From: Gammaproteobacteria bacterium
Lineage (GTDB): Bacteria > Pseudomonadota > Gammaproteobacteria > Steroidobacterales > XN24
Direction of reading: 5' to 3'
Length of the DNA: 64,000 nt
NCBI GenBank assembly: GCA_029287575.1
Contig: JARFQW010000032.1
Span: 1 to 64,000 of the forward strand
The notes under the pieces are model-generated. The model had not been told where the DNA came from and searched no databases. It saw nothing but the letters and a program-made list of their open reading frames with translations. Of this stretch, positions 12,123 through 30,841 are shown in pieces (within the stretch, counting starts at the first letter, position 1; each line of letters opens with the position of its first letter). A program made the translations under genes and the position numbers.

Positions 12123-12169
12123 TCGAAAGCATCGGTTCCGGTCTTCGGATCGGAGCTGAATCCGTCCGC

Positions 12170-12202
12170 GGGGCCGGCTCGTTGCCGGCCCCGCTCTTTT
12201 TT
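12170..12202 (+). terminator. Rho-independent terminator after the porin gene
   Basis: A 9-bp GC stem (GGGGCCGGC / GCCGGCCCC) with a 5-base loop is followed by GCTCTTTTTT. It lies 47 bases after the porin stop and 30 bases before the next start codon. Confidence 0.92.
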
Positions 12203-27944: not shown

Positions 27945-29555
27945 TCAGCCGGAAACCTTCAGCCCGGCCTTGCACAGGCCATCGAGAATCAGGTCCCGCA
28001 CATTCGGCTGCCCATACAGCCAGCGGTCGAGAAGAGCCGGTATTTCCTCAGGGCGAAACGGGCAGAGGGCGAGAAACTGGTCCAGGGCTGCGTGGGCTTT
28101 GTCCTGGTTGCCCAGCTGGCCCTGCGTGGCGGCGACCAGCTCCGGGCAAACCCAGTACTGCGGCATGTTGACCCGCTCGATGTATTCCAGGGCAAGCTCG
28201 TACTCGCCCTGGCGATAGTGGTCGTAAAAGATCGCGAACCAGTACCAGCCCGGATGGTTCGGGTTGAGACTAATCGCCCGCTTCACCAGGCCCAGGCCGC
28301 GCTCCCAGTCGCCGGTGAACGCGAACCAGACGCCGACCATTGCCATGGCGTCGGAGTCGCGCGGGTTCAGTTCCAAAGACCGCAGCCCGGCGGACCGACC
28401 CATGCCGACGTCCCGGTGAAAGAACGACGCATCGCAGAGGGCGAACTGGGCCCAGGCATGGTTCGGATCCAGCTCGGTGGCCCGCCGGGCCGCCTGCAGT
28501 GCACGCTCCAGCGAATCGGGCCGCATATTGAAGCCGTGCTTGAATTCCTCGAGGTAGATCAGGCTCTGCGCGGCCCAGGCCGTGGCGTTTCCGGGAGCCT
28601 TCTTGACCGCCAGTTCGGCGGCGGTGCGAGCGATCAGATGGTCTTCGGGGCTGACCCGCTGCCGATACACAAACTGGCGAATCAGCGACTCGTAGACCGT
28701 CAGGGACTTCGGGTCACGCTGCAGGACCGGGGCAGACAAGTCCCGCACCAGGGCGCCGTAGGGGTCGGCCACGGCAGTGACCACGTGATCGGTCAGGTCA
28801 TCCAGAAGCTCGAATACGCTGTCTGCGTCATAGTTCCGATGGTAGTCGTCGCCCCAGATTTGCCTGGCGTTATGGGTATCGGTGAGTCTCGTGCTCAGGC
28901 GCAGGCTGCTTCCCGCCCGGCGCAGCGATCCTTCCAGCACATAGCGTGCGCCAGCCTTCTTGCCGGCTGCGGCCGACGCCTGGGAGGCTACGTTCAGATA
29001 GGAAAAGCGTGCCAGGGCGCTGGAGATGCCGTCGGCCAGTTCCTCGGCCAGGTCAGTCAGTTCCGGATCCGTACCCCTGACCTTGATCGGGGTGACGGCG
29101 ATCCAGGGCCCGGCGTCCTCCGCGGGCTCCGGCGCCAAGGGCGAGGTTTCCGCAGCCGGCGCCGTACCGCCGAGCCTTAAACCCACAGCGTGCACGAGCT
29201 GGACAAGCGCCTCATCTCCCTGGCCCCCGGCCCATGTCGACAGGTCGATCGCGTGGTACTGGCGAAAGCCCATGGGGGGCAGGCCGCCGTCCAGGGTGGT
29301 GGCCACGAGCGTGCCCCGGCTTGCGGCAAACGACGCCTCATCCTTGACCCAGTTGGAGCGGGAACCGGAATCCGACCACGCCACGACGACCGTGCCAGCC
29401 GCCGCGAGTTCGGCTTCGATGATGGTGCTGAACTCGTCGCCGGCCACAATGCGCCGATCCCACCAGACTTCGAAGCCCTCGTCGCCCAGTGCGGCTGCGA
29501 GGCGCTCAATGATTTCGCGATCATCCCGGGCGTAGGAAAGGAATATGTCGGCCAC
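27945..29555 (-). CDS. TIR-domain protein with TolB/FlgO-like and TPR domains
   Basis: The 536-residue protein has an N-terminal TIR domain (about 1-125) starting [15 protein letters not shown]. It contains W69-x3-E73 (WVKDE), the spacing that carries the catalytic Glu in bacterial and plant TIR NADases. A middle domain (about 150-280), with [26 protein letters not shown] and [11 protein letters not shown], resembles the TolB/FlgO-like region found in adenylate-cyclase-linked regulators. The rest is TPR repeats (about 310-520) such as [15 protein letters not shown] and [11 protein letters not shown]. No signal peptide is seen. The start is GTG at 29555 with AGGGGG close upstream, inside a hairpin. 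A signalling or stress role is likely; defence is possible but unproven. Confidence 0.85.
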
Positions 29556-29560
29556 GTCAC

Positions 29561-29589
29561 CCCCTGTTCTGCGGTGCGCAGAACAGGGG
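29561..29589. promoter_or_regulatory. Perfect 12-bp inverted repeat between the TIR gene and sstT
   Basis: CCCCTGTTCTGC (29561-29572) and GCAGAACAGGGG (29578-29589) are perfectly complementary around a 5-base centre. On the minus strand the second half of the hairpin contains the AGGGGG that would act as ribosome site for the TIR gene five bases later. On the plus strand it lies just upstream of the sstT -10 box. It may be a dyad operator or an mRNA hairpin that hides the ribosome site. Confidence 0.7.
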
Positions 29590-29593
29590 TCAG

Positions 29594-29599
29594 TATAAT
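29594..29599 (+). promoter_or_regulatory. Consensus -10 box (TATAAT) upstream of sstT
   Basis: A perfect TATAAT lies 37 bases before the sstT start codon. No good -35 hexamer is seen 16-18 bases upstream, where the inverted repeat lies, so the promoter may need an activator or be controlled by a factor that binds the dyad. Confidence 0.55.
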
Positions 29600-29635: not shown

Positions 29636-30841
29636 ATGAAATCTGACGGGATCATCAGTCGTCTGGCCTCCGGCAGCCTGGTGCTGCAGATCGCCATCGG
29701 CATCGGCCTGGGCATCGCGCTTGCACTAATTTCACCCGATACGGCCAGGGGCTCTCTGCTTCTGGGTAATCTCTTCGTGCAGGCCTTGAAGGCGGTCGCG
29801 CCGATCCTCGTGCTGGTCCTGGTCGCATCGGCTATCGCCAACCGGCGGGCAAGCCACGCCTCGCAGCTGGGTCCGATCGTTGTGCTGTACCTGGTGGGCA
29901 CAGTGGCCGCGGCGCTGATTGCGGTGGCCATGAGTCTCCTGTTTCCGACCACGCTGGCACTGCAGGTGACCGAGTTCAGCGCCGATGCGCCTCAGGGCAT
30001 CGCGGAGGTCCTGGGCAACCTGCTGAACAAGCTCGTGGACAATCCGGTGAACGCAGTGCTCACCGGCAACTTCATCGGCATCCTGGTGTGGGGCGTGCTG
30101 CTGGGGGTGTTTCTTCACCAGGCCGCCGAATCGACCCGGCGGATGCTGGCCGACCTCGCCGACGCGGTGACGCATATCGTGCGCCTGGTGATCCGGTTGG
30201 CACCCATCGGCATCTTCGGCCTGGTGGCCGGCAATCTCGCGGAGTCGGGCTTGTCGGTCCTCGGCGGTTACGCGCGGCTGCTGACCGTGCTGCTCGGCTG
30301 CATGCTGATCATGGCGCTGGTCATCAACCCGTTGATCTTCTGGGTCAAGACCCGGCGAAACCCCTATCCAGTGGTGCTGACCGCCTTGCGGGAAAGCGGG
30401 GTCACGGCGTTCTTTACGCGCAGTTCGGCCGCCAATATCCCGGTCAACCTGGCCCTGTGTGAACGGCTGGACCTGGAAAAGGATACCTACGCGGTGTCGA
30501 TTCCGCTGGGTGCGACCATCAACATGGGCGGGGCGGCCATCACGATCACCGTTCTGACCCTGGCGGCCGTGCATACCCTGGGTATCAGCATGGATCTGCC
30601 GTCGATGCTGCTGCTGAGCGTGGTGGCGGCGTTGTCCGCCTGCGGCGCCTCGGGCGTCGCCGGTGGGTCGCTGCTCCTGATTCCGCTGGCTTGCGGCCTG
30701 TTCGGCATTTCGAACGACGTGGCCATGCAGGTGGTCGCCGTGGGCTTCGTGATCAGTATCCTGCAGGATTCCGCCGAGACCGCCTTGAACAGCTCCACGG
30801 ATGTCGTTTTTACCGCCGCGGTGGCAACGAAAACGTCTTGA
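29636..30841 (+). CDS. sstT: Serine/threonine:sodium symporter SstT-like
   Basis: The 401-residue protein belongs to the dicarboxylate/amino-acid:cation symporter (DAACS) family. It has eight or more membrane helices, and the substrate-binding hairpins carry [13 protein letters not shown] and [16 protein letters not shown], followed by [17 protein letters not shown]. These are typical of SstT, which imports serine and threonine with Na+. The Met at 29636 is favoured over 29615 because AAGG is upstream and the SstT N-terminus begins there. It is divergent from the TIR gene. Confidence 0.9.

Follow-up and report, generated by a model that had tools for sequence, protein, structure and literature searches.

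A perfect 13-bp dyad over the ribosome site of a TIR-TPR gene divergent from sstT, and its possible role as a start-dependent translation gate

The Locus

The window (the whole stretch of DNA that was analysed, 64 kb) contains a TIR-TPR gene on the minus strand and the divergent sstT on the plus strand. Between them lies the dyad CCCCTGTTCTGCG-GTG-CGCAGAACAGGGG (29561–29589, 29 bp), the arms of which are complementary in 13/13 nt (100%). A sequence-only reading of this DNA had described a 12-bp perfect dyad; the perfect inverted repeat is confirmed, and its arms are one pair longer. The overlap with the TIR-gene ribosome site, also claimed there, is found as well, all but one base of AGGGGG lying in the proximal arm (Table 1).

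The ribosome site of the TIR gene is predicted to be strong: AGGGGGUGA pairs over 9 nt, with one G-U, with the anti-Shine-Dalgarno end of the 16S rRNA (duplex -14.6 kcal/mol). The GTG start is backed by a homologue (L013) that begins GTG-GCT-GAC and has the same first residues. The middle and TPR part of the TIR protein recurs, at 38% identity, within a 1230-residue open frame (G000:C65:6138-7346, L127).

For sstT, ATG 29639 fits the homologues better than 29615, and its distance to the conserved SG(S/N)LV stretch is similar to that of the homologues' starts. The gene was found (E 1e-60) in 5 other genomes of 59, all in other families of the order, with 71–87% identity, and at the same threshold in none of the 6 other genomes of the same family, which would make the TIR/sstT pair young here, or else sstT lost elsewhere. 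Across the order, the distribution of sstT points to transfer or repeated loss.

Table 1. Features of the region between and including the TIR-TPR gene and sstT.
Feature	Position	Strand	Remarks
TIR-domain gene	27945–29555	-	TIR_2 at residues 4-120, middle region, TPR repeats towards the end; GTG start at 29555
Ribosome site AGGGGG	29560–29565	-	4 nt to GTG; 5/6 bases in proximal arm
Dyad arm CCCCTGTTCTGCG	29561–29573	strandless	on the minus strand, proximal (3') arm; holds AGGGG of the TIR-gene ribosome site
Spacer/loop, 3 nt	29574–29576		GTG on plus strand, CAC on minus strand
Dyad arm CGCAGAACAGGGG	29577–29589	strandless	on the minus strand, distal (5') arm
Inferred TIR mRNA start if TATACT is used	29584–29587	-	inside distal arm; inferred from -10 position
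TATACT, candidate -10 of TIR gene	29592–29597	-	5/6; no -35 better than 2/6
TATAAT, likely -10 of sstT	29594–29599	+	best -35 match 2/6
sstT, serine/threonine transporter	29639–30841	+	NCBIfam NF010151, E 5e-183

Rarity of the Dyad

The dyad is the longest of the perfect hairpins in the window. Under an order-3 Markov model (40 simulations), hairpins with arms of at least 13 and a loop of 3–8 are expected 0.025 times per 64 kb, against 1 observed, and the dyad pattern with 3 mismatches allowed did not occur in 100 shuffles. A sample of 440 kb of the same genome, i.e., the window and 20 further stretches, holds 2 perfect hairpins of at least 13 bp, the other being 14 bp long and inside an ORF (coding and intergenic labels follow the longest ORFs, not gene calls). 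The genome as a whole would perhaps hold a dozen or more, and because of the 2 in 440 kb the length by itself is not extraordinary genome-wide.

Intergenic perfect hairpins with arms of at least 11 number seven. The other six carry 5–7 T in the 9 nt beside the stem and have the look of terminators, whereas the dyad has 3 on one side and 2 on the other; the 6-nt start distances of two other hairpins are likely artefacts, given their T-runs on one side. Place and the missing T-run are thus what sets the dyad apart among the hairpins of the genome. An intrinsic terminator (GC-rich stem, then T-run) is ruled out by the missing T-run. A clear terminator is seen at 12168–12194 of the window, where an 11-bp perfect hairpin is followed by TCTTTTTTC.

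These counts bear on a neutral origin, by which the dyad would have arisen by chance or recently, or would be what is left of a small, eroded mobile repeat, and would have no selected role. The genomic frequency of such hairpins speaks for it and the Markov expectation against it, as does the place of the dyad, on a ribosome site and beside the only TATAAT of the window.

Conservation

The genome, 3.75 Mb, has a single copy of the dyad. Searches with the dyad, with a dyad half plus flank and with the flank returned this place only, besides weaker matches (2–3 mismatches). No second site with 0–2 mismatches to the 18 fixed core bases was found in the genome, and four have 3 mismatches. Relatives lack AGAACAGGGGTCAG (not found in 96/96), and at the 5 sstT loci of other genomes there was no perfect hairpin of at least 7 bp within 200 bp upstream of sstT (0/5) and no TIR gene.

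At related TIR-gene starts no such hairpin was found (0/13; z between -1.68 and 1.68 where the TIR gene of the window has -4.35, mononucleotide shuffles), these starts having been picked automatically as nearest to the TIR motif, so that several are probably internal GTG codons. A close TIR orthologue was found in none of 59, 396, and 369 genomes (overlapping draws), and the best full-length identity besides the protein itself is 40%, too far for comparison at base level. Conservation in relatives had been proposed as a check on the dyad, and its lack as a sign against the reading; the dyad is absent from all relatives tested, but these are distant, with no other species or strain of the genus among those searched, so a functional reading is weakened rather than refuted. 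With the nearest full-length TIR relative at such a distance, the results leave room for a young functional element. Uniqueness in the genome and absence from relatives speak for a neutral origin.

In public genomes the pattern CCCTGTTCTGN{1,24}CAGAACAGGG occurs in 76 stretches of unrelated bacteria; none has the flank of the dyad, and in many the pattern is followed by T-runs (by eye). No relative of the genome's own Y1 transposase was found in those 76 loci. Phages gave no match, and among the 14 plasmid records found no match covered the dyad.

Relation to REP-Type Repeats

The genome has one Y1 (RAYT-like) transposase gene (L153, G000:C158:8850-9167), flanked by inverted GGGGACAGTTCACTTA repeats. 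Pattern matching gives 12 copies of the GGGGACAGTTCACTTA type on 8 contigs (L183–L197), the transposase flanks included, and several of them pair as hairpins, some near-perfect (e.g., L193, 1343-1386). GGGG[AT]CAG is seen by eye on the flanks of 10/30 transposase loci in the order, and the transposase repeats of relatives are GGGGTCAG versions. Related transposases of the order (L158, L165, L172, L174–L176, L178) have end motifs of their own, GGGGTCAGAGT, GGGGTCAGAGCCCTTT, GGGGACAGTGAC, and GGGGTCTGACCCC, which looks like joint divergence of end motif and transposase.

The Y1 transposase gene of this genome with its GGGGACAG repeats, together with the GGGG[AT]CAG flanks of those 10/30 loci, prompted a REP reading of the dyad. 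In the definition given for REP elements a 5'-GT(A/G)G head stands directly before the palindrome (PMC2817692). With the REPs of Y1 (RAYT) transposases as described in that source, the dyad shares a short, perfect, GC-rich intergenic palindrome with a middle of 2–4 nt, and a Y1 gene in the genome; it differs in having no GT[AG]G head and in being single (PMC2817692). Before the palindrome stand CGTCAC on the plus strand and ACTGA on the minus strand, and REPs come in many copies where the dyad has one. The repeat of the genome's own Y1 transposase has a GGGGACAGTKCACTTA-type end with GGGG...CCCC pairing, whereas the dyad has GGGGTCAGTATAAT and CCCC...GGGG arms. Of the GGGG[AT]CAG matches in the genome, 12/16 are of the transposase type, and the place of the dyad is outside those. 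Membership is rejected on head, copy number and arm orientation.

A REP-type repeat is possible as a remote origin. The GGGGTCAG-TATAATT that adjoins the dyad resembles the GGGG[AT]CAG...TTAAT repeats flanking Y1 transposase genes in the genome and the order, and the flank GGGGTCAGTATAATT is reminiscent of Y1 transposase repeats; the opposite orientation of the arms and the lack of any copy argue against a mobile remnant. All in all, a neutral origin is considered somewhat unlikely, yet it is the closest rival of the reading preferred below.

Promoters and Control of the Two Genes

TATAAT occurs once across both strands of the window, 5 bp from the dyad. The sequence-only reading had placed the dyad before the sstT -10 box and where its -35 should be, and both placements hold: TATAAT lies beyond the dyad, which covers every sstT -35 position tested (spacers 15–19) and spans about -45 to -17 relative to the inferred sstT start. 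On the opposite strand TATACT overlaps TATAAT by TATA, giving a near-symmetric -10. A rival minus-strand pair, AATTAT and TGGACG with a 17-bp spacer, matches 8/12 against 7/12 for TATACT and would shift the RNA start some 3 nt upstream, to near 29588, and a start there leaves the ribosome site mostly closed. In a consensus promoter scan, neither strand had a site that passed.

Escherichia coli and Salmonella, according to published work, commonly have bidirectional promoters in which both directions share a near-symmetric -10, the divergent starts lying 7–25 bp apart and most frequently 18 (PMC10268837, PMC12825309). The TATAAT/TATACT overlap resembles the promoters described there, and the starts of sstT and the TIR gene would be about 18–21 bp apart, within that range; those of the cited promoters are mapped, and those here are predicted from the -10 positions. 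Among the matches listed by a literature search, no bidirectional promoter had a hairpin over a ribosome site to one side.

Control of both genes by one repressor or one hairpin had been suggested. As a DNA operator, the 29-bp palindrome would bind a dimeric repressor that blocks the sstT -35 region and the TIR-gene start, one protein serving both genes. The perfect 13-bp symmetry and the position over the sstT -35 region are consistent with this, and with weak -35 regions on both strands a regulator may matter. On the other side, no DNA-binding regulator is among the three neighbouring proteins scanned or the TIR-TPR and SstT proteins, and neither the core-base search of the genome nor the five other sstT genes supplied a second site or an upstream hairpin. 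The relatives tested have neither such a dyad nor such a gene pair; single-repressor control is unsupported and an operator unlikely. An RNA hairpin cannot act on sstT, because the predicted sstT start is downstream of the dyad and on the other strand, which leaves joint control by one hairpin unsupported too.

RNA Folding and Access to the Ribosome Site

Minus-strand RNA was folded from 18 start positions and the cost of opening AGGGGG was computed for each. For starts at or above 29589 the cost is 14.2–14.7 kcal/mol; it falls to 11.5 at 29588, 9.0 at 29587, 6.1 at 29586, 3.9 at 29585, and 3.3 at 29584, and is 3.4–6.0 kcal/mol for starts from 29583 to 29570. Computed pairing of the ribosome site in a stable stem is thus limited to starts from about 29587 upwards. 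In RNAs that begin at 29585 or 29584, what remains of the dyad is an 8–9 bp hairpin at the extreme 5' end, and in the computed ensemble the ribosome site is still paired with downstream coding sequence, from which it is cheaply opened. The fold of the 71-nt RNA exceeds shuffles in stability by 3.45 sd, and 1/200 shuffles are as stable. No Rfam family passed its threshold, the sole match being a snoRNA model at 29665–29708 (20.5 bits, threshold 50).

The claim that the repeat as RNA buries the ribosome site stands for the full-length minus-strand transcript, where the site is closed almost always (14–15 kcal/mol). It does not stand as a general statement: burial is start-dependent, requiring RNA that begins at 29589 or upstream of it, and the predicted TATACT start would lower the cost to 3–9 kcal/mol. 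A hairpin that always buries the site until a trigger (temperature, small RNA or protein) opens it, as an RNA switch, agrees with the closed full-length transcript but is very unlikely, given that start requirement, a stability that would be very high for a simple thermometer, and the lack of an Rfam family and of conservation.

Burial of a ribosome site by 5'-UTR structure, with lowered translation, is described for the ISPpu9 tnp gene, where mutations weakening that structure raised a reporter 26-fold (PMC8450116). The likeness to the dyad is in this burial; the ISPpu9 UTR is long, with an antisense RNA proposed as its opener (PMC8450116), whereas no such RNA is known for the TIR gene.

A Start-Dependent Gate

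The dyad is here read, tentatively, as a gate for translation of the TIR-TPR gene that depends on where transcription starts. The nearly symmetric -10 AGTATAAT would drive sstT one way and the TIR gene, weakly, the other. TIR mRNA from AGTATAAT would start in the distal arm, retain the short 5' hairpin, and leave the ribosome site usable. Transcripts entering from upstream, antisense to sstT, would carry both arms and form the 13-bp hairpin, and their ribosome site would be closed. Because the opening cost is start-dependent, the same dyad would block outside transcripts and spare those from the shared -10, provided that both start sites and the minus-strand box are used as supposed and the hairpin is relevant in the cell.

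In the transposase genes of IS10/Tn10 and IS50, an inverted repeat near the gene start protects against read-through; only transcripts that come in from outside form the full hairpin, while those of the gene's own promoter begin within the repeat. The gate would share with these the closing of the ribosome site by a hairpin in outside RNA and an own start within the repeat. It would differ in that the gene is a TIR-TPR gene instead of a transposase gene, and its start a predicted one.

Against the gate stand the absence of the dyad from all relatives tested, the -35 of TATACT (at most 2/6) with its better-scoring rival pair and the empty consensus scan, and the 13 related TIR-gene starts, none with such a hairpin. 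The gate is nevertheless ranked first as a possible reading, before a neutral origin and, third, a repressor operator. Distinctly less probable is its full form, in which one near-symmetric -10 serves two divergent genes and one-base shifts of the start change ribosome-site access over a range of 11 kcal/mol, which would shield the TIR gene against transcription running antisense through the neighbouring transporter gene.

The dyad is ordinary in kind and real in fact, found in this genome only and with a putative role. Were the gate untrue, it would be one more unconserved hairpin. If the gate is true, it would protect a signalling gene of the chromosome from stray transcription as transposases are thought to be protected, and translation would be set directly by which start a bidirectional promoter uses.
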